Shown: piece by piece, positions 11,640-60,145 of the stretch
How the letters are laid out: the number at the start of each line of letters is the position of its first letter
How positions within the stretch are numbered: position 1 is the stretch's first letter
Assembly (NCBI GenBank): GCA_037043015.1
Contig: CM073322.1
Span: forward strand, 29,620,864 to 29,684,863
From: Bryum argenteum
Lineage: Eukaryota > Streptophyta > Bryopsida > Bryales > Bryaceae
Length of the DNA stretch: 64,000 nt
Direction: 5' to 3'
The notes under the pieces: generated by a model
Told to the model about the DNA's origin: nothing
The model's input: only the letters and a program-made list of their open reading frames with translations
Databases searched by the model: none
Translations under genes and position numbers: made by a program

Positions 11640-12095
11640 ATCATTGAATGGATCACACAAGGGCAATCCCATGGATCGACCATCCATGGATCGACCGTCC
11701 ATGGATCGACCATCCATCGATTGACCATTTGTCGATCGACCATCCATTGATCGACCATCCGTTGATCGACCATCCATTAACCCCCGACTCTCCTTGTTGC
11801 AAAACGGTCTAAGTCACAAATTTTGACCTTCCTTTAGATTAAGTTCAAAAAATCTCACAATCCAAGCATTATTCGAAAGATTCAATCGTAAGATCTTAAA
11901 GTTCACTTGACATTCTTCTCACATACCAAATTTGAACCGTTCATTCTTCCTCATTTGTGAGATTATAATGGTCAAAGTTGGTTGAGTTTTTCTCCTGCAG
12001 GAACCTCCAAACCCCGTTTCGGGTTTTAAGGAGAGTTAGGGGTTAATCGACCATCCATCGATCGACCATCCATCGATCGACCATCCATTCATTCC
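11640..12095. repeat. 15-bp minisatellite interrupted by an F2 element
   Basis: Tandem copies of a 15-bp unit, consensus GATCGACCATCCATG with variants, run from about 11670 to 11776 and resume at 12043-12090. The interruption is a TTAA element at 11781-12042. The array translates on the minus strand as MDGRS repeats, which is an artefact. Confidence 0.9.
11781..12042. mobile_element. F2 TTAA element inside a minisatellite
   Basis: The ends CCCCCGACTCTCCTTG and its near-complement AAGGAGAGTTAGGGG are flanked by TTAA at 11777-11780 and 12043-12046. Array units on both sides read ATCGACCATCC in register, so the pre-insertion site is easily inferred: a unit with TTGA changed to TTAA. Length is 262 bp. 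The interior shares a GAACCGTT...GTGAGATTATAATGG module with the copies at 30939 and 40352. Confidence 0.85.
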
Positions 12096-12099
12096 AAAA

Positions 12100-12807
12100 T
12101 GAGGACACATACATAGCAAAGGCAAACCCGATCAATCAAACGCGAACCTACACTTGCTACATGGCCATAGACACACGTACCGCACAGATTTACAAGCTTA
12201 CGTTTTTCCGTCTCATATATCTTCTCTACTCGAAGATGAATCTATCTTCATCATTTATCGACCGCGAGACTACATGTGATTGAAGCGCTCCCACACATTC
12301 ACGCAAGGAAAAATCAAGTTCATGGCCGTTGACGCTCTTGCATCCAGATTACGATTGATCTTGCCCAATGAGTAAGTCACTCTCATCAATGAATGATGCT
12401 TGCTACCTACCTACCTAATTGGTATGTCTTGCTACCATATCGTTCTGTTCTGTAATTAGACAGACAGTCAATGTACTTTAAAACTTTAATTGTCTGTACT
12501 AGAGGTGTGTATTTTACATGCACAATGATTGAGGAGGTAATTTCACATGCACATGATTGTTGTGCAGTTTAGAAGAAGAAAAAGACTGGTGCTTTTGTTG
12601 TGCAGTTTAAACGGGTTTGATTGGTGCTCCCTACTGCAGTTTATTTTTGTTTCGATTGGTTAGCCGGTAATGAGTAAAGCAAAAGCGAGTCACTAGGCTA
12701 GTCCTGTGATCAAGATCTCAGTCTGGGGTCCGATGTATCTGATCGAAGAATCAGCCAATGATTTGCATGATTATTGTCCAGATGCAGTATTCCAAGATTG
12801 TTGAAAT
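12100..12807. other. Gene-free stretch, nothing recognised
   Basis: Unique-looking sequence with no open frame, repeat boundary or motif that I can support. Confidence 0.4.
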
Positions 12808-12886
12808 TGGCATGTATTTTCTCAATTGGGTACGAATTAATGGCATGTATTTTCTCAATTGGGTACGAATTAATGGCATGTATGAG
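12808..12886. repeat. 33-bp tandem duplication with a partial third unit
   Basis: The unit starting TGGCATGTATTTTCTC begins at 12808 and 12841, with the start of a third at 12874, so the period is exactly 33 bp. Confidence 0.95.
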
Positions 12887-12889
12887 CTA

Positions 12890-13140
12890 CAATGAAGCAT
12901 GAATAAATGGCATGCATTTTAGTGAAGGCAGTTTTTGTTTTTGAGTTTTCAAATTTTGTGTTTGTTTCAGCCATTGCAAGTGATTTGTGTGAAACCATAA
13001 ATAGATTTTGATGAATTTTTTTACATGATTATGATCTCAAGGTGAAATCAAACAACTTTTTAGTTGGAATTTTTTAGATCCAAATACTTTTGGTATTAGA
13101 TTTGCAATGATGTTTTCTCAGAGGAAAAAGGGAAAATTTT
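12890..13140. mobile_element. F1 fragment without ends
   Basis: The segment follows the F1 interior: AATAAATGGCATGCATTTTA, then GTTTTCAAA, CCATTGCAAG, TTTGCAATGATGTTT. It matches 22443-22680 in order and spacing. No TTAA or CCCC terminus remains on either side. Confidence 0.7.
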
Positions 13141-13162
13141 GAGAATGGAAGTATGCTAGACT

Positions 13163-13228
13163 GACCTACTTTGCAGCCGACTATATTGTACATGTGACCT
13201 ACTTTGCAGCCGACTATATTGTACATGT
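13163..13228. repeat. 33-bp perfect tandem duplication
   Basis: Two identical 33-bp units starting GACCTACTTTGCAGCC lie at 13163 and 13196. The period equals that of the duplication 320 bp upstream, but the sequences are unrelated. Confidence 0.95.
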
Positions 13229-13229
13229 G

Positions 13230-14320
13230 CCCTCGTGAAAGAGTACTTGGGTACATAATATACTTATGTTACTAATGCATGAGTGGTGGGCCGTGTATGG
13301 CTAGTGATCGAAGCTTGGCACCATAATAGACGCAATTGTAGAACGACACATAAGCGAAATCAAATACTAAAAGTAAGTGAGAGAGAAGAGAGGGCACGGA
13401 CTCTGGGAACTGGAAGCTAGAGGGTGCGCGAACATTGGAGGCACGAGGGCTGGGCCGCGGACGCAATAAGACACACCTCCTTGTAAAAAGTCAAGCTTTT
13501 CTCTCGATTTTATAGGTCCTATGAGTTTTATAGGTAATGTTCATGTAGGCACATTCTCAACTTAGGAACAAGAATATGGAAAATTTCTAGAGTTAACCTC
13601 TTTCAGAAATGGTTTTGCCCCCAAATCTCTAATTTCCCATTGTTCACTAAGGAGTAAGAACTTTTTTGCAATTTTGAACAATATGATCTTATAAGTACTA
13701 AAGAAATTGGATTTAAGGTGTAACATACGTATTATCGTAAGGATAACTTGTGAGTCTTCTTTGAGTTTTAAAGAGATTTGTATTTTTAGACTTGAGATGT
13801 CTCTTGCTGTCATTATAACTTTGAGCCAATGAAAGATCAACAACCGACACAAAGAGCAGTAGCTCGCATAAAGAGCAATAATTCTCATACCAAGAATGTC
13901 AAGCAAGTAGCCTATCGGCCAATGAAAGGTTGACAAGCCGACATGAACAATCCCTACCTCATTCACGGATCAAGAATATCGAGGGGCAACCTATCTTACT
14001 ATCTAGGGTTGCCTTCCATGACACACTTTCCATAATGGTAGTTTTAATTTTCATGTTTGACATGTTTATCTGACGACGAAAGTCCGACTATACTAGAAAA
14101 TGTGTAGTAAAAACAAGAAAATTGCCTTTTTGATGTTGTCTACCTCTTCCGAGGATAAATGTTTGTCTGACTATTGTATTTGACGTTCAACACTGTCGCA
14201 TAAAACAATCATGAACACACCTCGAAGTCTAAAGTTGTCCAAAATTCTTATTCTTTAATGAAATTGCTCATCTTCAAGGATTATAATTAAATGACACCAA
14301 GAGGCAATGGGTACAATGGC
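13230..14320. other. Gene-free stretch
   Basis: No gene is recognised. Around 13800-13950 short phrases of the type CCAATGAAAG, CAACCGACA and AAAGAGCA recur, suggesting decayed tandem repetition. The 134-codon minus-strand frame at 13562-13966 has no motif. Confidence 0.4.
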
Positions 14321-14323
14321 TTA

Positions 14324-14628
14324 GAGCATCCGCAACCATACTCGCCAAGTGTATGACATATGCAATAAGTGGATGAGAAATGCAAAGGGCCCTTCAAAAA
14401 TGACTCTTGGCTCTCTACTTTGGCGTTTCAAGAAACCCTCCAAAACTAAGTTTAGTTGACTACATCTCACATTCTACTTGCGATTGGTGCATTGACTAAT
14501 TCACATGCACTTTTGATGATTAAGGGGCATTTAAGGATGGAGGAGTGTGATTTCAAGGGCTCTTCAAATATAGATATAGATGAAAATTTTTAGCGAGTCA
14601 CCTTTAGCGAGTATGGGTAGAGATGCTC
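14324..14628. mobile_element. MITE with GAGCATC termini
   Basis: The left end GAGCATCCGCAACCATACTC pairs with the right end GAGTATGGGTAGAGATGCTC. TA lies outside both ends (14322-14323 and 14629-14630). The wider flanks read TTA and TAA, so either a 2-bp or a mutated 3-bp duplication is possible. Length is 305 bp with an AGCGAGTC-type subterminal repeat near the right end. It is probably a Tourist- or mariner-type non-autonomous element. Confidence 0.7.
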
Positions 14629-14639
14629 TAACTGTGCAT

Positions 14640-16030
14640 AGCTCGGATGCGGCCAATGCAATCGTCAAAAGGCAACCCCGAGTGCCGGTGAGGCGGCAGA
14701 AAAGCATGTGGAGCTGCACGAAAGTTTTGTCTCCAATTGTCAACGAACGCAGCAGCAATTCCCAGGAGCAATGAAAGCAAACAGAGCAGGCTTGCAGGAG
14801 GAGCATTCATTGATTAAGAGACGACTCATCGTCTTCCCTTGCTAGACAAAAGTACTTCTTTCGGTCGAGTACCGTTGTAGACAAAGAGTGGCAAGCTTCA
14901 TTTGCCACATGATTGTAACTAAGTAACAAAATAACAATTCTCCTCTGGCGTCACATTCTAACTAAATGTCGACTCCACTGAGGCCCTAATCATTGAGCTC
15001 ACAAGCAAGGGCAGATTTGCTCTTACTAACTAAAGTCTCTCCACTGCGCCACAGAGACAACGTACGACGTGGTACACAAATGATCGAGTTGAATCCCATC
15101 AAGGGTCGTGGAACTTAATGGAAAACGATGCTTCCTACGTGTTATCACAGATTCAGTATTATCGTTTGCATTATTTCCACTGACACAAACATGCTTATGT
15201 ACTACTACGTTCCAGCCTCTGTCAAGTCAAGTACGTTCAATCATGCTGGATTATCACAGCTGATTCAGATATTTCCTAGATCTCCATCTGCATGTACGCT
15301 CCTCTCCAAAACATTCTACGATATTGCAGAGCACTGACCTGGGCAGGCTCATTTATTATCCGTTTCAGTTTGAAAGAGTTCAGTTACTGTTACTCCGTTC
15401 AGTCTGTAGAGGTTTGCGTACGATTCAACTCACAGGGCCGGTGTGATCAGAGATTCCGGGAAAACGTACGCAAGTACGTATAATTAACGTTGGCATGGGA
15501 CGGTGGAGCCAGGGTCTTTCCATCCCGCGAATCTGTGTGTGGGCCGGCCTACTGCCTGTACTTGCAGGTAGCTGCACCCTGAACTTGAAAAGCTTTCCCG
15601 GTTGGGTCCCGCATTGCAGGAGGTGTTCATTTGTTGCAGGTTTGTCACCTATTCTTTTCAAAGGAAGGCCGCGCGCACAACCCCACCACAGCAAGTCAAA
15701 ACAAATTAAGTTCAATGGCTGATCACAATCTGGCTTACGATTTTTCTGCTTCGAAACGATGTCCTTGAGAAGTGGACTCGAGCTACGATCGAGGATCCTG
15801 AAGGGGATGGTACTACTGTGGTTCAATTCAAGATCAGATGGCGAGGACAATGCTCGGTGCTAGGTACAAATTGCCTCATGCTGTCACAACGAGATTTGTA
15901 ATCCCTTCGCTGAACAAGAAGCATACATATTTACGTGGTCTTTTACAATTGTATAATAATAACAAAAGCATCTGTATGAATTTCGGTTTTCAAGCTAAGC
16001 GGTAATGCACGCTGCTTTTACCTCAAAGTG
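14640..16030. other. Gene-free stretch, nothing recognised
   Basis: The region has slightly higher GC than its surroundings. A 141-codon minus-strand frame (15425-15850) is open, but no domain, signal or repeat can be recognised in it, so it is not called as a gene. Confidence 0.35.
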
Positions 16031-16039
16031 ACACCACAT

Positions 16040-16229
16040 TGATGGGCTGTTCCATTGAACATGGCACTCAAAAGTGCCATTCGACCACACCAAAATTTGT
16101 ACTATTACCACATTTTTAAATTTTTGAACTGTATGTCCAAAAATATTATAGCCTCATTCATTTCTCAGCCCAAATGGCCCCAGTTCGCATGTTTTTGATC
16201 ATACTTCATTGATTTCTAAACTCCATGAA

Positions 16230-16273
<44 letters not shown>

Positions 16274-16312
16274 CTTTTCAGAACAGTGCCATTTAACGGA
16301 ATTGAGATTTGT
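16040..16312. mobile_element. Decayed F5 foldback remnant carrying a poly(T) run
   Basis: AGTGCCATT phrases at the left and TGCCATTTAACGGAATTGAG at the right recall the ends of the F5 element at 24491-24893. A 42-base run of T (16232-16273) lies inside. Boundaries are not defined. Confidence 0.4.
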
Positions 16313-16631
16313 TGCTTGTATTCCTCTCCGTTGCAAGAACAGAATGGGAGAATCCAACCTGAAGCGGACTGTGTTATGAAATTTCTTTGAAGAAATAATA
16401 AACTATTGACATTGACCAATCACACGCACGCCACATACCTCTCTGTGAACAGTTGAGGTTTACTCAGTCAGTTACATAAGTGAAGCCACTCAAAGAAAGC
16501 TTCTTCTTGAAGTGAAGAGCTCGTGTTAACGAAGAAATGGCTAGTGTACGCCGGAGCTTCCAAAGTAATAATTTGCTTCGACTTTGTTTCCAAGAAAATT
16601 TGAGAAGAGCAATCTAAAATAATTCGACACC

Positions 16632-16996
16632 AGATGGATAGAAAGTCCGGTCCATTTCTAAGGGGCCTGCGTGAATGAAGGGTCTGTTCGTAATGTTGAT
16701 AGCCCGATGGCCATCAGACAAGGGGAAATTGATTGAGACAATACTATTTTCCCCTCTCGAGGGTGGACACTCTAAAGTCTAAGCTAGTTTCTAGCTAGTT
16801 ACTGGTGCCTTGAAGATACCCGACATAGTATCCCCTAGAGGGCTTTGAGATACCCATACAACAAGGTCCAAGGACCCCTCACAATAGTTGGGTGGACTGT
16901 AGTGGTGAGCACCATGCCGGCATGGGGAATAGAACCCACGACCTCCTCATTGGGGGCCATGCCAAGGCTTTTGGTCCCTTAATTCGAGACCATATT
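16632..16996 (-). mobile_element. tRNA-derived SINE-like element, copy S1
   Basis: On the minus strand a tRNA-like head contains GTGGGTTCTATTCCCC, close to the polymerase III B box. The body that follows is shared with the copy at 28645-28975 over more than 300 bp, to the shared end GGACCGGACTTTCTATCC. No coding capacity is present. The A box is degraded here. Confidence 0.65.
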
Positions 16997-17289
16997 GGTT
17001 CTAAGTTTCAGTTATAGACATGCTAACTCCATACAACAAGTGGTCCGTGTGACTAATTTATTACACTGATATACAATTTTACATCTGATCATCTGGACAT
17101 GTTTTGAACGACCATGTGAAAGTTTAATTTTCTTAGTGTAAGGTGTATGTACAAACAATGAGCATTCAAGGGAAACTTTGTCAGATTAGAACTTTGGGAA
17201 GTCTCTTCTTACTTCACTCTTAGAAGAAGAAGATAAAAATCCAACATATTTAGAGGCCAACGTGAATAGAGTGAATAGAGTGTTCGTTT

Positions 17290-17592
17290 GACCCATGCTT
17301 GGATGTATGCCCGGAGGTCATTACAATGACAAGACTACTAATCCCTCTCATGGTGAACACTCTTCTCGTTCCTACCTAGCCACTAGTGACTTACTCATAC
17401 CCCACATGCTATCCCCCAAAGGCTTTGAGGTACCCATACAACAATGTCTAAGAACCCCTTACCATAGTAACTATTGTGTAGACTATGGTGGTGAGCACCA
17501 CGCTGGCATGGGGAAACCTACAACTTCCTCATTGGACGCCATGAGCCCTAATCACCAAGCTAAGGCTTGTGGTGCTTCTGCTTGACCCCTAG
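17290..17592 (-). mobile_element. tRNA-derived SINE-like element, copy S2
   Basis: On the minus strand TAGCTTGGTGATTAGGGC resembles a polymerase III A box and is followed about 35 nt later by GTAGGTTTCCCC, a degraded B box. The body (GTGGTGCTCACCACC, GTATGGGTACCTCAAAG) is shared with S1. The 3' part differs from S1 and ends near GGGCATACATCC, so this is a sister subfamily. Confidence 0.65.
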
Positions 17593-18349: not shown

Positions 18350-18352
<3 letters not shown>

Positions 18353-18387
<35 letters not shown>

Positions 18388-20275: not shown

Positions 20276-20279
20276 TCCA

Positions 20280-21760: not shown

Positions 21761-21769
21761 TAGTATGAG

Positions 21770-22276: not shown

Positions 22277-23247
22277 CCCCTAAACGTCCCTAGTGTCAAA
22301 AAACGACATTTTGGATGAAGGGCATAAACTTTCAAGAGCCATAACTTCTTCATCCAAACTCCGTTTTTGACGAAATCACTTGGGTTAAGTCACAAATCAA
22401 GTCTAGTTTATGCGGTAAAAATTGCAGACTCATAAAATAAAGTATGAATAAATGGCATGGATTTTAGTGAAGGCAACTTTTGTTTTTGGGTTTTCAAACA
22501 TTTGGCATGTTTTACAATTGCAAGCCAATTATGTGAAATCTAAAATAGTTTTTCATGAATTTTTTTTCATAGGTTTGATATTTAGATGCATCCCAACAAA
22601 TTTGTGGTTGGAAGTTTTTGATCTAGATAACTTTGGTATTGGCTTTGCAATGATGTTTCTACGATGAAAAAAGTGAAAAAATGGATGATTTTTGAAGAGC
22701 TAGATCTCCTTCATCCACCGTTAGATTTTGACCTTATTTTCTGGGATGGATTCCAATTATTGTCTATTTTTAGTGGCAGAAACCTTGACCCAATTGAGGA
22801 TATATTGAAGAAAAGGCATGGATTTGAGTGCGAGGGGTCTAGTTTTGGACTATTTTTCCTTTGTAAAATTTTTGGCAGTTTTCACGACTACAAGGCTATT
22901 ATTTGAGCCAAGATTTTTTTTTGATGAATTTTTTTGGTACAAGAGTGTCTTTGAGATGAAGATGAACAACTTTCTAGTTGCTGATTTTTTTATTGCAAAT
23001 TTCATGTTGGTAGTATTTTCACTTCAAAGTGGAAATGATGGTATTTTGTAGCCTGTTTTGCGTACTAATATGTTATGATCTCGCAATCTATGAGGTCCCA
23101 TGAGTCAAGTTTTGGTCCACATGATCTACTACAAGTATATTACAAGTTTGTATGGATGAGATCTGAATAGCTTATCTTTATTTTCATCTATATCACTTAT
23201 TTTGAAAATGAGTTTTTGGCTTAAAATACCCCAAGGACGTTTAGGGG
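22277..23247. mobile_element. F1 TTAA element, copy B, full length
   Basis: The left end CCCCTAAACGTCCCTAG and right end CCAAGGACGTTTAGGGG are inverted repeats. CTAA lies at 22273-22276 (one change) and TTAA at 23248-23251. Length is 971 bp, AT-rich, without a credible protein; the short frames at 22664-23051 are shared by sequence homology with other F1 copies. Confidence 0.85.
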
Positions 23248-23249
23248 TT

Positions 23250-26587: not shown

Positions 26588-26848
26588 CCCCTAAAGGCCC
26601 ACGGCCGCCGATTCGGCTTTTACGGTCAAGGCCAAAAAAAATTTACAGTCAACTTCAAATGTTATGATCTCACATCCAGTGATGATCCAACGGTTGAAAA
26701 TTTTCACACTACTACCTATGGTAGTCTACTTCAAGATCCTACGGTTGAAGTTATCAAAAATTTCCAAAAATATTGGACGTACCTGCATTAGTACATAGTG
26801 GTCAGTGTTGGGATTTCAAGCTCCCAAAACATCATGGGCCCTTAGGGG
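26588..26848. mobile_element. Short TTAA element (F2-sized)
   Basis: CCCCTAAAGGCCCACGG and CATGGGCCCTTAGGGG form the inverted ends, with TTAA at 26584-26587 and 26849-26852. Length is 261 bp. The interior carries GATCCAACGGTTGAAAATTT and AAGATCCTACGGTTG, the module shared with the F2 and F3 elements. Confidence 0.9.
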
Positions 26849-27113: not shown

Positions 27114-28444
27114 CTCCTAAATGTCCTTGAGGTATTTTTAGTCAATAACTCATTCTTGAAAAAAGTGACATAGCTAAAAACAAAGATAAGTTATTCAAAT
27201 TTGAACCGTACAAACTTGTAAAAGACTTCTTGTAGATCATGTGGACCAAATCATGAAGTGGGAGGTTATTATCATGGGGCCTTATAAAGTGGGAGATCGT
27301 AACGTTTTAGTGTGCAAAATAGGCTAAAAAAACTATCTTTTTCACTTTGAATTGAAAATACCAACATGACTCTTGCAATTAAAGAATTACCAACAAGATA
27401 GTTAATCTTCATCTCAAAGACTCTATCGTACCATACAAATTCATCAAAATAATATCCTCACTGGCTCAAATAGTAGTTTTGCAATGGTGAAAATTGCCAA
27501 GCATTTTACAAATGATAAATAGTCCAAACCTAGTCCCCTAACACTCAAATTCATGCCTTACTTTCAATACATCTTTATTGGGGTCAAGGTTTGTACCACT
27601 AAACCTAGACTATGATTTGAATCCATCCTAAAACTAAAGTAAAAATATTACGGTGGATGAAGTAGATATAGCTCCTCAAAAATCATACATTGTGTCAGTT
27701 TTTTTCATCGTAGAAACATCATTGCACATCTAATACCAAGGTTATCTGGATCAAAAACCCTCCAACTACAAAGTTGTTGAGATGCATCCAAAGATCAAAC
27801 TAATATTACAAAGTTTCATGAAAAACTATTTTTGATCTCCCATAATTGGCTTGCAATGAACTGATATTTAACTAATTATGGACTTATTTTGAACTTATGG
27901 ACTTTTTGCAACTACTGAAGAACCTTGGTTTTATCGGCGGCCAGCCGACACATCCCCATATCTGCGACTTTCAAAAGGTCACAACTCACTCAATTTTTGT
28001 CCAAATGAAACATATGAGGTGTTTTTTGACATCTACATTTTCTGTAGATATCAAAAAACACCTCATATGTTTCATTTGGACAAAAACTGACTGAGTTATG
28101 ACCTTTCAAAGATTACGGATGGAGTCTCAAGGTTATATCGGCGGACAGCCGACATTATTTCTGGACTATGAATTTGTCCATAATTAGTTAAATATCAGAT
28201 AATGGTAAAAAATGCCAAATGTTTGTAAACCCATAAACAAAAGTTGCCTTTACTAATGTGCATGCTATTTATTCATACTTAACCACTTAGGTTTGCATCT
28301 ATCACCACACAAACTAGACTTAATTTTTGACCCAACCCAAGTGATATTGTCCAAAACGAAGTCCACGTGAAGAACTTATGGCTCTTCAAAGGTTTCTGCC
28401 CTTCATCCAAAATGTTGTTTTTCCACACTTGAGACATTTTCGGG
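27114..28444. mobile_element. F1 element, copy C, carrying a nested hairpin element
   Basis: The interior runs in the same order as copy E (38606-39580). The ends CTCCTAAATGTCC and GACATTTTCGGG are mutated and the TTAA sites are no longer exact. The foldback element at 27859-28200 interrupts it, leaving about 985 bp of F1 sequence. Confidence 0.75.
27859..28200. mobile_element. Hairpin (foldback) element nested in an F1 copy
   Basis: The outer inverted repeats CTGATATTTAACTAATTATG and complement enclose a second inverted repeat TCGGCGGCCAGCCGACA. They also enclose a long central hairpin with about 62-nt arms (about 27976-28037 and 28044-28106) and a loop of a few bases. AATG lies on both sides (27855-27858 and 28201-28204), consistent with a 4-bp duplication. 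Comparison with uninterrupted F1 copies shows that the sequence is an insertion. No coding sequence. Confidence 0.8.
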
Positions 28445-30938: not shown

Positions 30939-31198
30939 CCCCTAAAGGTTCTTGATACAAAATTGTTTAAATTATCAAAAAGAACCTTCTTCTACTTCAG
31001 GTGCAAATAAACTCAATCTAAGCATTGATTAGAAGATCCAACTGTATGATCTTGAAGTTAACTTGACCCTTTTCTCGAATGTCAAATTTGAACCGTTAAT
31101 TTTTCTCCAATTTTGAGATTATAATGGTCAAAGTTGGCTGAATTTTCTCCCTGCGGAAATTCCAAAAAGCGATTTCCGCTTTCTTGGACCTTTAGGGG
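30939..31198. mobile_element. F2 TTAA element
   Basis: CCCCTAAAGGTTCTTGA and TCTTGGACCTTTAGGGG form the ends, with exact TTAA at 30935-30938 and 31199-31202. Length is 260 bp. The interior is shared with 11781-12042 and 40352-40595. Confidence 0.92.
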
Positions 31199-31341: not shown

Positions 31342-31906
31342 CCCCTAAAGATCCAAGAGGACCAAATCAGGCAATTGCTATTTTGGGCAGCCTTGATGAA
31401 TAGGTTAAAAGTAATGTTTTTGCCTAAATTTTTTAATGGATGCTCCCTATAGTGCAAAGTGTATGTGGTAAAATTTGCAAAGCCAAATTCCAATTTTTGA
31501 GTCTTCTACAACAATTCTTGGTTTGCGAGCCAAACTGGGACAATTTAAATTTAGTGTTTTTTTGAGATTTCTTTTTGGAAAAATGTTCATGACCATATCA
31601 CTACTTAAGTTCCAAAGGGCCCCAAGTCACAAAGAGTACCAATTTTACAAGGGCAGCCTCCAAAAGTGTCAAAAATTATCTCAACAATGCCCAAAAAAAC
31701 TTCGTAGACAAACTTTGGATGTTACGATCTCTCAAATGGTAAACATCCAACGGTCAATTTTTAAATCAGATACTGAAATTGACTTATTTACAAGATCTTA
31801 TGGTTGGTCTTAAAAAATTTGTTTCGCACCCCTTGAAGTGCATAGACGTAGAAAATTGAAGTTTTGAGGTTTCAAGCTCCCAAAAACACCCAAGGATCTT
31901 TAGGAG
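31342..31906. mobile_element. F3 TTAA element, 565 bp
   Basis: The left end CCCCTAAAGATCCAAG and right end CCAAGGATCTTTAGGAG are inverted repeats. TTAA lies at 31338-31341 and the mutated TTTA at 31907-31910. Near the right end the interior carries the reverse of the shared GATC/CAACGGT module (31715-31805). Confidence 0.85.
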
Positions 31907-33604: not shown

Positions 33605-34325
33605 TAAGAGAGGGTTTGAAGATGAGTTCTTTTTATCCTAAGATTTTATACTTGAACCTATTTTTAGTTACTATTCTAAAAGTTGACGGCTGGATCTTCT
33701 CATTTGTGAGCATAGCGATCAAAGTTGGTGTAAAAGTTTTTTTTGGCCATTCCATGATACACATATTGTAAATGGTCCTAAGGGCAAGTTGATGTTTGTT
33801 ACTCCAAACAATTTAAGCATTTTTTTCTCCATGCAAGTAATCAAAGTGGGTACGGCTATGCAAAATTTTAGAAATCATCGTGCTTTTTTGATCTTCATGC
33901 AAATTGTTTTCTAAAAGAAGGTTTAAAAACAATGATATAGAAAAACATGCACCACATTAGATATATTTATTTTTAGAAAAATGTTGAACAATGAGTAGGT
34001 CTATCTATGAGTTTGTGAATTTTGGCACAAAAAAAATGGAAAAGTCTCAAATTTAGACAATCTTAGAAAGTTTTTTTTTGGTAAAACCACTAGAAATTGT
34101 GAAGAATGTTCTTGTACTTTTTGGAGGTTGTTCTTGTAAAATTGGTAAACTTTTTAACTTGGATCACTATTGAGCTTGAGTAGTGGTTTGGTCATGAACA
34201 TATTTTCAAAAACAATTCAAAAAGTCTAAAATCAAACTACCCCTTTTTGGACTTGAAACTTAAAAATTCTAAATGAAGGTTTTAAAATTGTAAGTTTGGC
34301 TTTGCAAGTTTCACCACCAATGGTG
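33605..34325. mobile_element. F3 fragment without ends
   Basis: The order of phrases matches 35402-36325: TCCTAAGATTTTATACTTGA, GTTGACGGCTGGATC, TTTGTGAGCATAGCG, TAGAAATTGTGAAG, then a TTTGCAAGTTT. Neither CCCC terminus is present. Confidence 0.6.
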
Positions 34326-35401: not shown

Positions 35402-36086
35402 CCCCTAAACTACCATGGTGTTTTGTGAGCTCCAAACTCCAAAATTGCAATTCCATACCACCTTGTAAACTTTGAAGTGTGAGAATATTTTTACACTTTT
35501 TTGAAACTTTCAACCGTATGATCTTGAAGAGAACTATTATTAGAGGTAGTGACTTAAATTTCAACCGTTGGATCGTAGCCATTTGTAAGATCATAACATT
35601 CAAAGTTGATGCAATTTGTTTTTTTCAGCAAACAAAGTCGACTTTGTGCAAGGAAAACGTGATGCTTATTACCTTAAACATCTAGCTCATATTGTTTTCC
35701 ATGTATATAACTAAGTTGGGCATGCCCATGCAAAATTTTAGAGACTCATTTTGCTTTTTGAACCTTCATGCAATTTATTTACTAGAAGAAGGTAGAAATA
35801 AGGATTTGGTAAAACATGCACCACGTTTATTGTCTATGGTTTAGGGGGAAAATGAATGGTGAGTATATACCTTCTTGAGTTTTTGAATTTCAAGAAAAAA
35901 TAAATTCCAAAAATTCCAAAATCTCAAATTTTGGCAAATTTTGAAAGAAAAAATTGAAATATCAAAGAAAACTTTGAATCTAGCTCTTGTAATTTTTGAA
36001 GGGTGCCCTTGTAGGATTGATAAAAGTTTCAACTTGGGTCACTTGGAAACCTAAGTACAAAATCAATCAAGAGAAGATTTCCAAAT

Positions 36087-36122
<36 letters not shown>

Positions 36123-36325
36123 TCTGCCCGCTCGAAGGCTGAAAACTAAAATTTGCGTTTAAGAACTCCATAGGTGGAGTTTGACTTTGCAAATTTTCCC
36201 ACATACACCTTGTAGTGTAAGGAACATCCAGTAGAAATCTTAAGCAAAATTATTACTTTTACCATCTTAACTTAGGCTGCCCGAAATCACAAATCTCCTA
36301 ATCGGAGGCCTTGGTAGTTTAGGGG
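35402..36325. mobile_element. F3 TTAA element, full length
   Basis: CCCCTAAACTACCATGG and CCTTGGTAGTTTAGGGG are the ends, with exact TTAA at 35398-35401 and 36326-36329. Length is 924 bp. It is a longer version of the class seen at 31342 and carries the shared module at 35508-35610. Confidence 0.93.
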
Positions 36326-36675: not shown

Positions 36676-37451
36676 TTTTATTATTATTATTATTATTTTT
36701 AATCTTGTAGGGCAATTCTCAAGAGGCGATCCGAGATAATAGAGATTAGATTTATTTATTTATTATTTTTTTTCCAATTTTTTAAAATAAGTTTTTTTTT
36801 CTTTTTAAAAAAAATATGTTCGTAACCAAGTCACTACTCAAATTCCAAAGTGACTCAAGTCAAAAAGTTTACAGGTTCTACGAGTGCAACCTCCAAAAAA
36901 CAATGTCCATGGTTTTTAATAATCATTTCTCTCAAAATTTGTCAAAATTTGAGATTTTGAAATTTTCAAAAAACACTTTGCTCAAAAATCACAAGTTTAT
37001 GAAGGCACCCAACCGTTGTTCATGTTTTTTCACATTCAAAATTTACATTCCACATTATTTAGTTTTCCATATTTGGACATTTTTACCTCCCTATAAGAAC
37101 ATGGGGAGCCCTAAGTTTTTGAATACACATACTCAACTTAGTTACCTACATGGAAAAAAATATGAGCAAAATGTTTGAGATTACAGTCATCAATTTGCCC
37201 TTTGCACCATGGAGAACACATATATGCCCAAGAAAAATTTGATAAAAATTTGAACGTTACGTTCTTTCAAATGATAAACATCCAACGATTAATTTTTGGA
37301 ACAATACCTAGAAACTGGGTTAGGTACAAGATCTTAGGCTAGAATTCAAAAAAAGTAAAATTATTTGTTACAAACTCGAGGGAGTCCATAGAGGTTGAAG
37401 ATCACAATTTTGAGATTTCAAGCTACCAAAAACAAAAAGGAAATTTTGGAG
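36540..37451. mobile_element. F3 element, reverse orientation, left end lost
   Basis: The right end GGAAATTTTGGAG is followed by TTAA (37452-37455). The interior runs as the reverse complement of 35402-36325 and includes the shared module at 37256-37345. The left terminus is not identifiable. An (ATT)n run lies inside. Confidence 0.65.
36619..36712. repeat. (ATT)n microsatellite
   Basis: A nearly uninterrupted run of ATT trinucleotides. Confidence 0.97.
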
Positions 37452-38489: not shown

Positions 38490-39640
38490 ATGCAAATATT
38501 ACTCGGCCGTTCAAAAACATGGTTGTATTTAAAGTGCGGTTCATGAATATATGCCCTTTCATGTCAAAAATCGACAAAAACCAATGTTGTTTTTTTTCAT
38601 TTTAACCCCTAAACGCCCGAGCCTATTTTTAGCGGAAAAGCACATTTCCATAGAAATCGTCATAGATGAAAATCAAGAGAAGCTATTAAGATCTCAACCG
38701 TACAAACTTGTAATAGACTTATCAAAGATCATGTGGACCAAAATTTGAGTCATGAGGCCTTATAGATCGGGAGATCGTAACATATTAATACTAAAAACAA
38801 ACTGCAAAATTTCATCATTTAAACTTTGAGGTGGAAATGCTACCAATATACCTATTGCAATGAAAAAATCACCAACTTGAAAGATGTTCACCTTCACCTT
38901 AATAAGTCATTTACCCAACAAAAATTCATCAAAAAAATCTCTTGGCTCAAATAAAAGCCATGCAATGGTAAAAACTACCGAACATTTTACAAAGGAAAAA
39001 TAGTCCAAAACTAGACCCTTTGCATTCAATTTCATGCCTTATCTTCAATTTCATGCCCGATCTTGTTAAGTTTTCTACCACTTAGACTAGACTCTAATTG
39101 GAGGCCATCCCAAAAAGTTAAGTTGAAATCCAACCGTGGATGAAGGAGATATAGCTCCTCAAATATCATCTATTTTCTCACTTTTTGTGTTGACAAAACA
39201 TCATTGCAAATCCAATAGCAAAATCATTTGGATCAAAATACTTCTCACTACAAAGTTGTTAAGAATCACCTTAAGATCATGACCATGAAAAAAATAATCA
39301 TGAAAAACTATTTTTAATTTCACATAATTGGCTTGCAATGGTAATACATGCCCCATGCTTGGAAACCCAAAAACAAGAGCTGTCTTCACTAAAGTGCATT
39401 CCATTAATTCATACTTTATTGTATGGGCTTGCAAATTTTACAACACAAACTAGACTTGATTTGGAACCTAACCCAAGTGATTTCATCCAAAACGGACCTC
39501 GGATGAAGAAGATATGGCTCTTCAAAGTTTCTGTATGTACATCCAAAATGTCGTTTTTTGACATCGTGGGCGTTTAAGGGTTAAGTACATCAAAACACGC
39601 CATTTTACCAGAATAACGCCCTTCTAATAGAATTGAGGTT
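38490..39640. mobile_element. F5 foldback copy split by an F1 element
   Basis: The left part (TCGGCCGTTCAAAAACAT, TCATGTCAAAAATCGAC) and right part (CACGCCATTTTACC, GAATTGAGGTT) match 24740-24893. The two halves are separated exactly by the F1 element at 38606-39580. The far left arm is missing. Confidence 0.75.
38606..39580. mobile_element. F1 TTAA element, copy E, with empty-site paralogue
   Basis: The ends are CCCCTAAACGCCCGAG and GTGGGCGTTTAAGGG, with exact TTAA at 38602-38605 and 39581-39584. The flanks join to match the uninterrupted F5 sequence around 24834-24837, so exactly one TTAA existed before insertion. Length is 975 bp. Most of it is identical, in inverted orientation, to copy F (41640-42613). 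Confidence 0.95.
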
Positions 39641-40351: not shown

Positions 40352-40595
40352 CCCCTAGAGATCATCCTTGATTCAAAATTGCTTAAATTACACCAATATG
40401 ACCTTTGCTTACTCCTGGCTCAAAAAAGCTCCATCTAAGTATCGAGTAGAAAATCCAACCGTAGGATCCTAAAGTGAACTTGCCTTCTAACTTGTACGTA
40501 TAATTTGAACCGTTAAATCTTTTTCATTTGTGAGATTATAATGGTCGAAGTTGGCTGATGCGAGAACCCCGAATAGCCATTTTGACATTCTTGGA
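40352..40595. mobile_element. F2 TTAA element lacking its right inverted repeat
   Basis: CCCCTAGAGATCATCC follows TTAA at 40348-40351, and the interior matches 30939-31198. At the right, TCTTGGA joins TTAA (40596-40599) directly, so the terminal CCTTTAGGGG has been lost. Confidence 0.75.
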
Positions 40596-41639: not shown

Positions 41640-42613
41640 CCCCTAAATGCGCCGAATGTCGAAAAACGACATTTTGGATAGAAGGCAACAACTTTGAATA
41701 GCCATATTTTCTTCATCCGAGGTCCGTTTCGGATGAAATCACTTGGGTTAGGTTTCAAATCAAGTCTAGTTTGTGTTGTAAAATTTGCAAGCCCATACAA
41801 TAAAGTATGAATTAATGGAATGCACTTTAGTGAAGACAGCTCTTGTTTTTGGGTTTCCAAGCATGGGGCATGTATTACCATTGCAAGCCAATTATGTGAA
41901 ATTAAAAATAGTTTTTCATGATTATTTTTTTCATGGTCATGATCTTAAGGTGATTCTTAACAACTTTGTAGTGAGAAGTATTTTGATCCAAATGATTTTG
42001 CTATTGGATTTGCAATGATGTTTTGTCAACACAAAAAGTGAGAAAATAGATGATATTTGAGGAGCTATATCTCCTTCATCCACGGTTGGATTTCAAATTA
42101 ACTTTTTGGGATGGCCTCCAATTAGAGTCTAGTCTAAGTGGTAGAAAACTTAACAAGATCGGGCATGAAATTGAAGATAAGGCATGAAATTGAATGCAAA
42201 GGGTCTAGTTTTGGACTATTTTTCCTTTGTAAAATGTTCGGTAGTTTTTACCATTGCATGGCTTTTATTTGAGCCAAGAGATTTTTTTGATGAATTTTTG
42301 TTGGGTAAATGACTTATTAAGGTGAAGGTGAACATCTTTCAAGTTGGTGATTTTTTCATTGCAATAGGTATATTGGTAGCATTTCCACCTCAAAGTTTAA
42401 ATGATGAAATTTTGCAGTTTGTTTTTAGTATTAATATGTTACGATCTCCCGATCTATAAGGCCTCATGACTCAAATTTTGGTCCACATGATCTTTGATAA
42501 GTCTATTACAAGTTTGTACGGTTGAGATCTTAATAGCTTCTCTTGATTTTCATCTATGACGATTTCTATGGAAATGTGCTTTTCCGCTAAAAATAGGCTC
42601 GGGCGTTTAGGGG
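41640..42613. mobile_element. F1 TTAA element, copy F, inverted relative to copy E
   Basis: CCCCTAAATGCGCC and GGGCGTTTAGGGG are the ends, with GTAA (41636-41639) and TTAA (42614-42617) outside. Length is 974 bp. From about 120 bp inside the left end to the right terminus it appears identical to copy E read in reverse, with one difference noticed. The first ~120 bp are clearly diverged. Confidence 0.93.
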
Positions 42614-53528: not shown

Positions 53529-54595
53529 CTTTTTTGTTTCTTCTATTTTCCTTTCTCGTCGTGAAATCATGTCAAAACTTTTGCCTGCCTTACATGGTTA
53601 AGTGCACTATTTTGGTCCATTCTTTACAAGTGAGAGAACTCTATCTAGCTCTCAAGTTTTGTCGATAGCTTTATGACTTCCTGCAGCACCAACTAGGTGA
53701 AGGGACATCGATCGAACCCTGATCAGATGATACCAGCACACTGCAGGAAATGCCACAAGGAACCTGATACCAGTTGCAGATCGAAAAATAACTCGTGATT
53801 TTGGGTACAGATCCTTATTCGGGTCGCCAAATCTGGAAAGCCTGCAGACCGGCTCGTTGACAAAATGAAAGAACCTTGAATATTATTGATACATTTTCGC
53901 CCCTGTCAATGTCGATTACTGTTCATTCTCGTTAGTTCCTGCCTAGATGGATGGATAGCAGGCCCTTGTCAACTTAGGAGCTCAGAAGTGGTACATTCGA
54001 TCATGAACTCCGTGCCACGGACAACCACTGCAAAGTAACGTCTTCGCAAGCCTAACTAGCCACCTGGCTACTTGTTCTATCCATCTTGACATATGGTTAT
54101 ATAACCTAGCTACTCTAACGCCCCACAGCCGTGTAGCACTTGCCATCGACGGTCTCCATGTCATCGACGTGCATTTATCAATGACGACACGTTCGCATGT
54201 TCTGCTGGCAGAATTTCGGCAGAAGTGGAACTGGCACTTGTCTTATTCATTTAAGCTCTTTCTGCTGGATGGGAATAATCCCTCGCCATCACCATCACTC
54301 TGCAGCTGATAAGTCTCCCAACTTGAACCCACCGGTAACTCGATCTCGAGATTTGCTCCGAGTGACGTCCTACGAATATGCAACAAGACGTAACCGCGTA
54401 CAGAATATATTCTGGAATAAGTCGCTGAGGCCGGAACTATACAACTGGTACGCAACAACAACAATGTACAGTTCCACACATCAACAGTGAAACACATTCA
54501 CGGATGTTGTAGATTTGATTCTGTTTCGGACTTCATTGGTTCGCAAGGATCGTGGGATCAGCAACATGCAAATCAACTGATTGTATGGGAGTGCA
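53529..54595. other. 3' flank of the GARP gene, nothing recognised
   Basis: The first few hundred bases are presumably the 3' untranslated region. No coding sequence or repeat was supported beyond it. Confidence 0.4.
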
Positions 54596-54597
54596 AC

Positions 54598-54744
54598 TTC
54601 TACCACAAAAACTAGACTTGATTTAGCATCCAACCCAAGTGATTTCATCCAAAACGGACTCTAAATCAAGAAGTTATGGCTCATCAAAGTTTCTACCCTT
54701 CATTCACGATATTGTTTATTGACATTTGACACGTTTGGGGGTTA
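54598..54744. mobile_element. F1 terminal fragment with TTAA end
   Basis: CAACCCAAGTGATTTCATCC, AAAACGGACTC, TCTACCCTTCATTCACGAT and the end GACACGTTTGGGGG followed by TTAA (54741-54744) match the last ~145 bp of copy E. The rest of the element is absent. Confidence 0.75.
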
Positions 54745-55110
54745 AATGCGTTTCTCTAGTGTATCCTACTCTCAATGTAATCCACCATAGATTACATTTT
54801 TGAGGGGTGGTTACGTGATCAAAAACTACAACTATCGAAAAACAACCTTACTTTCTTATATTCATATTATCTTTCTCATGCCTTTAGTGTCATGAAATAT
54901 AATAGTGTTTGAAGCATGATTGGGGATAGAATCTTATTGCTTTACGCAACTCCATGAAAATGAATTATTTCTAAGACACCTCATGGATGGTAAGAGGTGT
55001 GGTTGGTGGAGAGATCGGACCACTCACAAATTTTAACAAATATTTCAACAAACAAAATATCATAAACATGAGAGGTTGATGTTTGGATCCTTGGTAGGCT
55101 TATATCAAGG
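54745..55110. other. Gene-free stretch, nothing recognised
   Basis: AT-rich sequence without supported features. Confidence 0.4.
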
Positions 55111-55116
55111 TTGTCA

Positions 55117-55835
55117 TCTTGTTCAATCAGATGCTAGCAGTAAACAGTGAATTCCCTTCAGAGGGATTTTTTTATCAAAAGTTTGAGAACTCATTTTCAA
55201 CTCAGAAATGATCGGATTTGAGAACCGTAAAGTGTTTTGGAATCACATTGGAGTGTACTACAATACTATGGGTAAATTATCAATTCTTTCTTGTGATATT
55301 ATTTAACAAGTTTCAACTTTCAAGTACTTCATACACCATTTACCATGAATTAACTCTTACTTCGTGCTTCAGTTACAAAGTAAATTGCAAATTTAATAAA
55401 GCTTCCAAAGTTGTTCTCAGAATACTTCAACACATACTTTTTTGGAGCACTCATATATCTCTTGGTTGTTTGTTTGACTTGAAGCCCAAACACAAACAAG
55501 AGATATATAAATGCTTCAAAAAGTATGCACTCAAGCACTTCTCGAAGCTCATTTCAAATTTGCAATTGATTAAATGGACTTCGTAACAGAAGCAAGAAGT
55601 AAGAGTAATCAATGATAAATGCTCTATGAAGTACTTGAAACTTGTTGAATAATATCATTAATCATTTACCCCTCATATTGTACTACACTCCAATGTGATT
55701 CCAAAACACTTTACTCTTCTCAAATCCCATCACATCATTTCTGAGTCCAAAATGAGTCCTCAAACTTTCGCAAAAAAACTTCCCTCTGAATAGGAAACTC
55801 GTTAACTGCAGGTACCGGACTGTACTGTACAATGG
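55117..55835. mobile_element. Foldback element, family W copy 2
   Basis: The arms share TTTGAGAACCGTAAAGTG, AAGTACTTCATACACCAT and the right terminus CTGTACTGTACAATGGC with the copy at 10493-11489. The two arms are complementary over about 280 bp. The left terminus is decayed. No target duplication identified. Confidence 0.7.
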
Positions 55836-56132
55836 CTAAAGCATGTCAAGCTTTCCTCCAGATGTAAAAACTCACCATCATCCGGTAGAAGGGGTCGTTT
55901 AGAGGGTCTCCGGTGCAGATGCTCTCAACGCTAGCCATTCTAAATACTTGCAGAACTCAAATTCCTACTCGAATACCAGAACGTAGAATGTGACGAGCTA
56001 GCTTCCTCGAACGTTCGGCAGCTGCTGCAAGGAAATGACAATGAGCCGCATTGCCTTTCCAAAATGAGGTCAAGCTATGGATAAAATAGAATTGAGGTGT
56101 GTACTGTACTCTTTATGCAATATTGTAATGTA

Positions 56133-56234
56133 CTCCCTCTGTCCCATTATAACTGTCCAGTAGGTTCTCTCAACTCCATCCCTCAAGGTAGATTTGAGAG
56201 AACCTACTGGACAATTATAATGGGACAGAGGGAG
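56133..56234. mobile_element. Stowaway MITE copy 1
   Basis: CTCCCTCTGTCCCATTATAA and its complement end the element, TA flanks it (56131-56132 and 56235-56236), and the 102 bp form one near-perfect hairpin. These are the defining traits of plant Stowaway (Tc1/mariner) MITEs. Confidence 0.95.
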
Positions 56235-56644
56235 TATATGGTATGGAATAATGTATGGCGCAATAAAATACATGGAAATAATAAAAGAGACTGAGGAGCT
56301 TGAATGGTACGGTACCTAGTGAGTAGTTCACGGCTACACGCCATATGATACACGAGACAGAATAAAAATGTGGGTATTGAACTCCAGGCGTACATCATGC
56401 GAATGATGAACTTACACACTTACCAGGCTCGGAAAGAATGAATAAAGAATTTACTGCAGGATCGACTCTCACTGTGGAAAAAGCAAACATAAAAGAATGA
56501 TTGTCGCAAATAAGTTATTATGTTACAATGGTCAGTTGATAGATATATCAATGTATCTCTGTCTGAACTCGTACGGATCTGACTAAAGGTTTCAGGCTGG
56601 GTTCTGTTCACTCCTTAGAGGCCGTCTAGCTCGGGCACCCTTAA

Positions 56645-56996
56645 CCCTTTGGGGTCTGAAACGGGCAGCCCAAAATTGGATCACAACATCTTTTGGACTT
56701 GGGCATTATGAATAGTGCACTTTTTGAACTTAGGCATCATGAATGGATCAATCAATGATGAGCTTGTAACCTTCTACAAGTTTATGTACAACCTAACCTA
56801 CCTACCACAATCCTTTCGAAGCACAAAATCACGCATACAAATTGTGATTCGAATTGTAAAATTTCACTTTTTGAATACATCATAAGAAGGTGACCAATTT
56901 GACATCAGAATATAAGTGAAAAGTTGAGTACAGTGAGAGCTACAAGGCATATTCTCTTGGAAAAGAGCCCCTTCGGCTTGCTTGGGCGTTTAAGGA
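56645..56996. mobile_element. F4 TTAA element
   Basis: CCCTTTGGGGTCTGAAAC starts after TTAA (56641-56644), and TTGGGCGTTTAAGGA ends before TTAA (56997-57000). Inverted repeats are poorer than in F1-F3, and length is 352 bp. A truncated relative lies at 39678. Confidence 0.7.
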
Positions 56997-57000
56997 TTAA

Positions 57001-58020
57001 ATGAGTGCTAACAGTGTTTCTTGGAGCCCCATCAGTCAATAGGGTTTTTCCTTCACAATTCGTGGAATTTTTTATTTGGACCCCAAACCACCGTTTTTGA
57101 TATTTTTGAATTTAAAAATGGAGCCTGCGGCCGAAAATTACCATAGAAGTCCATTCCTTGGCATTTTAAGCCTGAACATTGAAAATTTAGGGGGCTCTTT
57201 ACTCCTCCCCCTCCCTTGCTCCCAAAAAATGCTCGTAGCACTGATTTACAGTGATCCGTCTAGCTTCTTCATGGGTGGTCACTTGGGCCTTCTTTACATT
57301 AGAAGCCTCCAGCCAAACTCCAATTGGGTCTCGGCCCATACTTGAGAAGCTAATCCTTGCGAAGCCATGGTCTTTGAATGTAGTTTAAAGTGAGAGAAGG
57401 CCAAATACTCCTATGTGGAGCTTTTTCTAGAATAAACTTAAAATATACTAAATGATTAGTCGTGGTTTTTTTGCCCAAAGACCCTCCGGAGGATTTTCAG
57501 TTAGGTTCACCTTGTTGAGGTAGGTCTGACTACAACTCCGGGGGACTGTAAAGAAAAGCAGTTTTTTGTGCCAACAAGGCAAAAAGTGCTTGCCATGTTA
57601 TTTTGGCTCCCTTTTCTCCCTTGGACTAAAATTTGCTTTTGTAAAGCTTCTCTTCATTGGCTTCTCAATTCCTAGTGTAAAGAGGGCCGCAATTGTTGAA
57701 TTTTTTAATTTTTTTAAATTTTTTTTTTCACCCCCGACAAAAAGAAAGGAAAACGTTTCCTCATCATTTAGATGAATTCCTTTTCCGGTGGAAACGTTTT
57801 TCTCAATACTAGAAAGGGTGGCATGCTCCTTTTGGAGAATGGCCACACTTTGTAGGTGATTGAACCAATTGGGGTAATATTTTCGATATTGTTATAAAAT
57901 TCAAAAAGAGGGCTTGTAGGTGCACCACAAACCTAAAGTACTTAGCCTAGATGTCACTTAAAATTTAAGTTCTAGTTATATTGGAACTCAAGACTGAAAA
58001 TCAAAATCTTAATTTTTTGG
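57001..58020. other. Gene-free stretch, nothing recognised
   Basis: Poly(T)-rich sequence lies near 57700-57730. The frames at 57053-57846 occur on both strands and show no motif. Confidence 0.35.
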
Positions 58021-58024
58021 TTAA

Positions 58025-58582
58025 TCCCTAAACGCTCTAGATGTTGAAATTGATCATTGTGGATGACAACCCAAAATTTTGAAGACCCATGTTCTCTTCA
58101 TCCAGGGTCTAATTTTAATTAAATTAAATTTGTTGGGTGAAATTTCAAATGAAATCTTTCTATGATGAATTCATATCTCAATCCACAACGGCATCAATTT
58201 ATAGCATGAATTTTTTTTCAAACTTGATTTGATTTGAGACCCAACCCACATAATTTCGAATAAAAATTTCTATTTCATAAATTTCTTGTTGACTTTTGTG
58301 ATTTTAAGATGTTGAAAGTAATTTTTAGTGGAATCAATTTCCTAATAGCTTCCTATTGATGCTTTCATTTATTTTTAGCTGAAAAAAATGCATAATTCTC
58401 AAAGAGTTGTATCTTCTCTACTCATGATGATTGTATTGATATGTTGGGTTTGATTCCAATTCAAGTCTATTATTTGTGATAGAGAACTTGGTTCAATTTA
58501 ATACGTTTTGAAGACATGGCATGTATTTGAGTGCAAGAGATTTGCTTTGGACTATTTGTCTTTTGGATTTTTTGGGGTATTT
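58025..58582. mobile_element. F1 fragment with left TTAA end
   Basis: TTAA (58021-58024) is followed by TCCCTAAACGCTCTAGATGT and then decayed F1 interior phrases in copy B orientation. The right half is missing because the next F1 copy begins at 58587. Confidence 0.6.
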
Positions 58583-58586
58583 TTAA

Positions 58587-59480
58587 TTCCTAAGGTGCAC
58601 TGGATGTCGAAAAACAATATTTTGAATGACAAGCTAAGACTTTGAAGAACCATAACTTCTTTGTACAAACTCCATTTTGGACGAAATTACGTGGGTTGGG
58701 TCTCAAATCAAATCAAGTTTGTGTGGTGGAAATTACAGATCTATAAAAAGAAACTATGGATCAATGGCATGCATTTTGGTGAGAGCGGTATTTATTTTTG
58801 GGTTTTGAAACATTAGGCATGTTTTACCATTGCAAGGCAGTAATGTAAGATTGGAAATAGTCTTTCATTTTATGTCCTTTGCACAATTATGATCACAAGA
58901 TGAAATCCATCAACTTTATAGTCAGAAATTTATTGATCCAAATACTTTTAGAATTTGATTTGCAATGACAGATGCTTCTACACTGAAAAAAGTGAAAAAC
59001 AAATTATTTTTGAGGAGCTATGTTTCCTTCATTCACAATTGGATTTCATCTTTGTTTGTTGGGTTGGATTCCAATTTGAATATACTCTTTCTAGTAGAAA
59101 CCTAAAAGCCCTCCAAGATGACTGTGAGGAAGTTAATGCATCCGTTTTTGTGCAAGGGTCTAGTTTTTGACAATTTCTTTTCTTGTAAAATTTGGGGCAG
59201 TTTTCACCATTGCAAGGTCATTATTTGCGCAAAGGTATTTTTCTCACCTTCATTCTTTTTGTTCAAGGGGGTTATTGAAACAAAGGTAGACAACTTCCTA
59301 GTTGTTGACTTTGCATTGCAAAAAGTCTATCGGTAGCATTTTCACCTCACACTCAAAATGATGAAACATTGTCATATTTATTTACTATCAACACATTACG
59401 ACCTCACAATCTATGAGGCCTCATAACTCACATTTGAACCACATGACTTAGACTAAGTCTACTACAAGATTGTAAGCAAC
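58587..59480. mobile_element. F1 element, copy G, right end lost
   Basis: TTAA (58583-58586) precedes TTCCTAAGGTGCACTGGATG. The interior follows copy B in order through GTAGCATTTTCACCTCACAC and CTCACAATCTATGAGGCCTC. The right terminus is unrecognisable. Confidence 0.7.
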
Positions 59481-59601
59481 CATTAGCCCGAGGAACCAAC
59501 GAGCTTCGAATTCTAGGCTATCAATTGTTTTAAACTAAATTTAAGTCTAGCCTTTTGCAGCTTTCTAATATTTTGCATGAATGACGTCACATGATGCTTA
59601 A

Positions 59602-60145
59602 CCTCTAAATTTCCTTGTGTGTTTTTGGAGCTTGAACCCTCAAAAGTGCAATTTTCTACCTCTATGCACTCCTAGGAGTGTGAAGCAAACAAGATAACTA
59701 TATTTAGACTTCGAGCAGTAAGATCTTATTTTTAAAGCCTATTTTTAGTCATTGCTCCAAGAATTGACCGTTGAATGTTTATCATTTGTAGAATTACTTG
59801 GACTTTCTAGAAACTTTGAAGCTTGCTCTTATAAAGCCTCGGAGGCTGCCCTTGTAGAATTGGTAAATTTTTGGACTTTAAGGCCCTTTGGAACTCAAAT
59901 AGTGATTAGGTTATGAACATATTTCTTAAAAAATGTTCAAAAAGATCTCAAAAATATTTTTTTAAAAATCTGCCCACCTTGGGTGTGAAAACTGAAATTT
60001 GCGTCAAAAATCTCTAAAACTGAAATTTGACTTTGCAATTAGTTGCATACACACCTTGTAGAATAGAGAATCCTTGGTAAAAATCTTACTCAAATAAATT
60101 AATTTGAACCCAAAAACTTAGGTTGCCCGAAATGGCAAAAGACCA
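59602..60145. mobile_element. F3 element, right end lost
   Basis: TTAA (59598-59601) precedes CCTCTAAATTTCC. The interior matches 35402-36325 through the shared module (about 59725-59800) to AACTTAGGTTGCCCGAAAT. The terminal AGTTTAGGGG is missing. Confidence 0.7.

Follow-up and report, generated by a model that had tools for sequence, protein, structure and literature searches.

PiggyBac-superfamily transposons and associated miniature elements in the genome of the moss Bryum argenteum

Introduction

The piggyBac transposon is a standard tool of genome engineering, and it is mostly known from animals. According to the accessible part of the structural report, the catalytic triad of piggyBac consists of D268, D346 and D447, and the DNA-binding domain contacts base pairs 9-14 of the terminal inverted repeat (TIR) in the solved complex (PMC7351741). 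In Daphnia, the available part of the Pokey report describes two divergent autonomous lineages with different inverted terminal repeats and matching lineages of miniature inverted-repeat transposable elements (MITEs), the mPok elements, and gives TTAA as the target duplication, with TTAT (5.93%) and ATAA (5.09%) as minor variants (PMC3849761). Here we analyze a window of 64,000 nucleotides from the moss Bryum argenteum (assembly GCA_037043015.1, contig CM073322.1, positions 29,620,864 to 29,684,863 of the forward strand), in which a sequence-only reading had proposed a large group of piggyBac-like MITEs inserted at TTAA.

PiggyBac has been listed for plants before. As far as the available excerpts of these sources go, piggyBac is listed among the MITE superfamilies of angiosperms (PMC10004981), for all groups studied in a survey of transposable element diversity (PMC4438587), and among the plant class II superfamilies in a review (PMC10794571). 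Repeat tables give 1,230 piggyBac copies for C-fern (PMC6890710) and a single 75-bp piece for Stipa (PMC8319324), and an abstract names insects, fungi and plants as sources from which piggyBac has been isolated (PMC10813416). Among the entries examined in the open-licence literature, we saw no description of native piggyBac elements of a moss.

We conclude, with a probability of about 95%, that the B. argenteum elements are piggyBac-superfamily DNA transposons, comprising many non-autonomous MITE families and full-length relatives with a gene for a DDE_Tnp_1_7 transposase. The piggyBac interpretation of the sequence-only reading is thereby supported by the TTAA duplication, by short TIRs that start with CCC, by the PF13843 domain inside the TIRs, and by a D-D-D triad. 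The moss elements add a new branch to a known superfamily, in a host group for which it is little documented.

Ends and abundance of the elements

All seven elements quoted in the sequence-only reading are present in the window with matching coordinates. TTAA on both flanks, which had been claimed for the group, is found for five of them (starting at 11781, 26588, 30939, 35402 and 38606). The other two deviate from TTAA on one side each: 31342-31906 has TTTA on its right, and 41640-42613 has GTAA on its left. The terminus CCCCTAAA, which includes the plant telomere unit CCCTAAA, is not found at every end; exceptions are 11781-12042 (CCCCCGAC, CCCCTAAC) and 38606-39580 (terminal CCCTTAAA; all three on the outward-reading strand). 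The several unrelated interiors of the sequence-only reading are partly related and fall into three groups: the mutually related stretches at 31342, 33691, 35402, 36781 and 59605, the elements at 22277, 38606 and 41640, and the 260-bp elements.

The ends are far more frequent than expected by chance. The sequence TTAACCCCTAAA occurs at 9, 20 and 36 ends in the window when up to 0, 1 and 2 mismatches are allowed, whereas thirty first-order Markov simulations averaged 0, 0.47 and 7.9 and peaked at 0, 2 and 13. In the entire assembly (258.8 Mb, 25 contigs), the exact 12-mer is found 14,192 times (7,028 + 7,164), and the reversed pattern 172 times (90 + 82). Some CTAACCCCTAAA matches are paired 71 or 79 bp apart and may belong to other repeats. 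The window was also searched with a library of 12 element sequences, five of which it had itself supplied. The matches account for 12,155 bp (19.0%) and form 25 stretches, many of them just 67-80% identical to the library; the reversed window yielded one match of 44 bp.

Transposase genes and full-length elements

The PF13843 profile of the DDE_Tnp_1_7 transposases has 116 scored matches among 775 candidates, on contigs C1 to C11 (best E-value 7.4e-82). Each of the listed matches exceeds the curated cut-off, and none was found in the control genomes (0 of 14). Four stretches of about 9.5 kb around transposase matches were examined, and two element families were studied end to end. The first element (PB_A, 5.69 kb) is present in three loci (L038, L039 and L040) in copies that are 99.8% identical, in different flanks. 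Its ends read TTAA-CCCCTAAAGGCCCA, the homology between copies stops within a few bases of the CCCCTAAAGGCCCA termini, and the target duplications are TTAA (L038), TTAT (L039) and TTAA (L040). The second element (L037:1779-6969, 5,191 bp) has CCCTTAAACGCCC termini with TTAA on both flanks, and an open frame of 897 codons that holds the catalytic and the cysteine-rich domain together.

In a Pfam scan (E <= 0.001), both element proteins match PF13843 alone, with E-values of 1e-75 and 1.4e-82. The 897-codon protein matches the solved structures of piggyBac (6x67, E-value 2e-29) and piggyBat (9c0f), as does the 831-codon frame of the 5.69-kb element, and the PDB matches of both frames are exclusively to piggyBac and piggyBat. 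Counted from the first codon, D537, D628 and D745 of the 831-codon frame align with D268, D346 and D447 of piggyBac, and the matching VDE, CDN and VDV motifs are present in the PDB alignment of the 897-codon frame. The sequence-only reading had called for an autonomous partner, and a DDE_Tnp_1_7 transposase is indeed encoded by TTAA-bounded elements whose ends are of this class. A partner with a transposase of a different class, which that reading had named as a refuting outcome, was not seen.

The cysteine-rich domain was sought by a regular-expression search. It is in frame in L030 (the same locus as L037) and L034; L033 also has it in frame, but with a change at one cysteine position. In L032 the frame is kept, but the motif lies past a stop. 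The search did not detect the motif in L029 and L039, and it left L031, L035 and L036 unscored for want of an anchor motif. The 5.69-kb family has expanded very recently: counting the query, the genome contains no fewer than 40 copies of a 1,401-bp segment of its transposase that are 99-100% identical (40 scored among 207 candidates).

Target site

A single clean copy does not distinguish a TTAA target from a TA target, and three kinds of target test were therefore run. First, flanks with a single changed base were counted genome-wide. Changes at positions 1, 2, 3 and 4 gave 895, 1,124, 749 and 625 matches, against 14,192 with TTAA (227, 655, 128 and 77 in the reversed-pattern controls, and 172 for TTAA). 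The outermost T and A are kept to much the same degree as the TA between them, and all four target bases are specified.

Second, some elements lie between direct four-base repeats other than TTAA, namely ATAA...ATAA (L027, L041) and TTAT...TTAT (L039, L042, L043). L027, L042 and L043 have flanks in common and count once; we rejected them as separate ATAA insertions in favor of one event that was copied along with its surroundings, so that the ATAA/TTAT set amounts to three independent events. On contig C1, four of the 11 listed ATAA ends face a TTAT end at element distance, and as three of these four pairs have common flanks, they represent two independent insertions.

Third, empty sites were compared, in the form of paralogous and tandem-repeat sites rather than alleles of different individuals. 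The element at 11781-12042 (e1) interrupts a 15-bp tandem array, with a spacing of 15 across the insertion if one TTAA goes with the element and 19 otherwise; removal of e1 with one TTAA therefore restores the register of the array. The joined flanks of 35 candidate pairs gave 10 junction-spanning matches for six pairs. We used the three for a 925-bp element in L018, whose paralogous empty sites (L015, L023 and L025) are about 90% identical and ungapped at the junction. The other seven (67-81% identity) were dropped as gapped, self-overlapping or too diverged. The target duplication is four base pairs, TTAA. A duplication of TA only, the other outcome that had been named as refuting the piggyBac assignment, is rejected by the position counts and the ATAA and TTAT repeats. 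The direct four-base repeats also rule out a three-base TTA or TAA duplication, and with it PIF/Harbinger (Tourist) elements.

Link between the MITEs and the transposase elements

Several MITE families have subterminal sequence in common with the 5.69-kb element. F925 aligns with its first 369 bp and last 51 bp; the alignments of F925 and e5 with its left end span 376 and 410 columns at 72-74% identity. The e2 and F565 sequences align with parts of both ends (approximately 70-85%), and F260 and e1 have about 105-114 bp in common with a region near the left end. In the ten library sequences without transposase, the longest stop-free stretch is at most 113 codons.

TIR bases 9-11 differ among families, but agree between both ends of one element, and they fall inside the segment of base pairs 9-14 that is contacted in the piggyBac complex. 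In six families, 17 of 18 bases agree (shuffled mean 7.2, p 0.001), in ten families 29 of 30 (shuffled mean 11.4), and in 13 families, three of which were paired by TIR similarity, 36 of 39 (shuffled mean 14.5); in these counts, e1, e2, F565 and e6 come from the sequence-only reading and were possibly TIR-paired, and some of the families depend on one another.

A number of observations weigh against this interpretation. At the threshold used, F970 and e6 have nothing beyond the TIR in common with the two transposase elements studied. A search of the window with the two proteins found no transposase remnant. In PB_A, the most recently amplified element, L038 and L040 carry the cysteine-rich and catalytic domains in different frames (2326-2565 and 2493-4988 in L038), and L039 has a further lesion; the family's own enzyme may therefore lack the cysteine-rich domain and rely on relatives. 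Slight differences in length are seen among many of the 40 near-identical segments, and equal-scoring PF13843 rows hold open frames of 515 to 916 codons, so some copies are not intact. The junction of the paralogous empty sites of L018 reads TTAG, not TTAA. Finally, no excision or transposition event was observed.

The first of these points leads to the alternative that survives best, although we regard it as unlikely: the MITEs, or at least the F970/e6 group, would not be served by the piggyBac elements seen here, and would merely have the same target and TIR start. A direct transposase source for F970 and e6 was not found, and the modest identity of many window stretches to the library fits this alternative as well. 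Against it stand the subterminal sequence of the 5.69-kb element in F925, e5, F565 and e2, and the state of e6 itself, for which 40 full-length copies, itself included, were scored among 6053 candidates, at 95-100% identity. Moreover, the e6 end CCCCTAAACGCCCGAGC and the end of the 5.2-kb element CCCTTAAACGCCCGAGC differ at only one of 17 bases.

It is much less probable still that the elements belong to another TTAA-duplicating superfamily. Kolobok and Sola3 duplicate TTAA and so have the same target site as the moss elements, but the two transposase frames match no Pfam family other than PF13843 and no PDB entries other than piggyBac and piggyBat, although no genome-wide search was aimed at Kolobok or Sola. 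Least credible, and in our view negligible, is the assignment to Stowaway-like MITEs of the Tc1/mariner type, inserted at TA and ending in ACCCC. It draws on the formal equivalence of the two readings at an unmutated TTAA and on the GTAA and TTTA flanks of two of the seven quoted elements. It is refuted, unless mutations coincided, by the ATAA and TTAT four-base repeats, including two independent insertions on contig C1. The outermost T is moreover retained (14,192 against 895 changed) about as well as the innermost A (625 changed), and the transposase inside the elements is DDE_Tnp_1_7.

MITEs and fragments in the window

With the piggyBac assignment in place, the window can be annotated as follows. 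The 260-bp group comprises the MITE at 11781-12042 (F260/e1), an F260 element at 30939-31198 (minus strand, 94% identical to another copy) and an F260 fragment at 40365-40558. The 261-bp MITE e2 (26588-26848) has the TIR CCCCTAARGGCCCA; it can be aligned with the 5.7-kb transposase element over 34 bp at one end and over a stretch of 135 columns. Related to F925 and the 5.7-kb element are the 565-bp MITE F565 (31342-31906, to the ends of the latter) and a fragment at 33691-34317 (to its left end). The 924-bp MITE e5 (35402-36325, plus strand) matches bp 1-406 of this transposase element over its own first 397 bp, at 73.7% identity. Diverged copies are an F925-type fragment at 36781-37451 and an F565/F925-type copy at 59605-60144.

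In the F970/e6 group, an F970 MITE at 22277-23247 (plus strand; CTAA left, TTAA right) is 95.7% identical to a full copy elsewhere. A second F970 copy at 27116-28439 (minus strand) is interrupted by a foreign insert at 27859-28200, about 340 bp that contain a hairpin with 64-bp arms and a 5-nt loop (foldback 27974-28106). The 975-bp MITE e6 (38606-39580, plus strand) and an inverted e6-type MITE (41640-42613, minus strand) are 98% identical and 2 kb apart, whereas the remaining scored full-length e6 copies are 95-96% identical to the first. Diverged members are an e6/F970-type copy at 58603-59474 and an F970-type fragment at 3670-4272, outside the range of the sequence-only reading.

Some candidates elsewhere in the genome were set apart. 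A 1305-bp "family" was rejected as a family of its own, as it consists of e5 and a foreign insert of about 390 bp. This foreign element is nested in e5-type copies (L015:2850-3240) and solo at L013:5099-5500, with CTAAAACCACCAC / GTGGTGGTTTTAG near its ends. In L015, L018, L023 and L025, the e5 or 1305-bp element lies approximately 0.96-0.98 kb from one same repeated sequence, and in view of this constant spacing the four loci seem to be copies of a larger repeat with the element inside it. A 980-bp stretch (L022:4138-5117) has identical 20-bp CCCCTAAAGAATTCCAAGTG ends and TGTA on both flanks, unlike the TTAA families, and was excluded from the family counts.

Other features of the window

Two short palindromic elements at 56128-56239 and 63022-63127, with TACTCCCTC(C/T)GTCCCATT ends, are presumably Stowaway-like. 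Broken frames on the minus strand at 6488-9174 resemble, by eye, pieces of a Ty3/gypsy polyprotein. A protein with TPR and metallo-beta-lactamase domains is encoded at 61525-62682 (minus strand). Its best named match is from Ceratodon purpureus (81% identity), the next named matches are from Sphagnum and other non-seed plants, and further homologues reach up to 94%. These named matches agree with a moss as the host.

Discussion

By analogy with animal piggyBac, the moss transposase would bind both ends of an element and cut it out via hairpinned ends with TTAA overhangs. The element would then be inserted at TTAA, or rarely at ATAA or TTAT, and the donor site would be left seamless. Different transposase lineages may serve different MITE families, with family-specific TIR bases 9-11 as the distinguishing feature.

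The position of the moss transposases was assessed in a tree of 86 proteins, seven moss rows and 79 of 148 homologues picked by number and length, which was built by a quick method with midpoint rooting for drawing only. The seven moss rows and 46 rows without organism name fall on one side of a branch with a support of 97 in the Shimodaira-Hasegawa-like approximate likelihood ratio test (SH-aLRT), and 12 named animal rows and 21 rows without organism name on the other; several of the animal rows are long-branched and their placement is unsure. The moss rows represent at least four lineages. Among the 148 homologues, none of those bearing an organism name is from a plant, which is weak evidence of absence elsewhere, since annotation pipelines often omit transposons. 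A wider interpretation, for which the odds appear to be slightly less than even, is that of a land-plant branch of piggyBac, apart from the compared animal proteins, with several co-resident lineages that are still or were very recently active, each with its own code at TIR bases 9-11 and its own MITE families, as a principal force in a plant genome.

With transposase genes, recent copies that are nearly identical, and MITE ends in the thousands, the moss offers a native plant system for TTAA targeting. The natural TIR variants at bases 9-11 make the specificity of a transposase for its TIR testable.

The moss elements are like piggyBac of Trichoplusia ni (6x67/6x68) in the sequence of the catalytic domain, the aligned D-D-D residues and the TTAA target. 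The ends of the T. ni element also start with CCC, as those of the moss elements do. The latter are unlike T. ni piggyBac, which is not among the sequences of the tree, in their size of about 5.2-5.7 kb and in the later start of the PF13843 domain, at residue 396 (831-codon frame) or 426 (897-codon frame), relative to the 594-residue PDB chain. With Daphnia Pokey, as far as the available part of its description goes, they have in common the minor TTAT and ATAA duplications beside TTAA and, probably, an arrangement of divergent lineages that differ in their terminal repeats and have MITEs to match. The scale is different, as mPok is given there with 90-110 copies of about 750 bp, compared with 14,192 perfect ends and many MITE families in the moss. 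Finally, in comparison with the angiosperm piggyBac MITEs as they appear in the accessible part of the inventory (PMC10004981), the moss MITEs are tied to full-length elements and transposase genes that lie alongside them in one genome.

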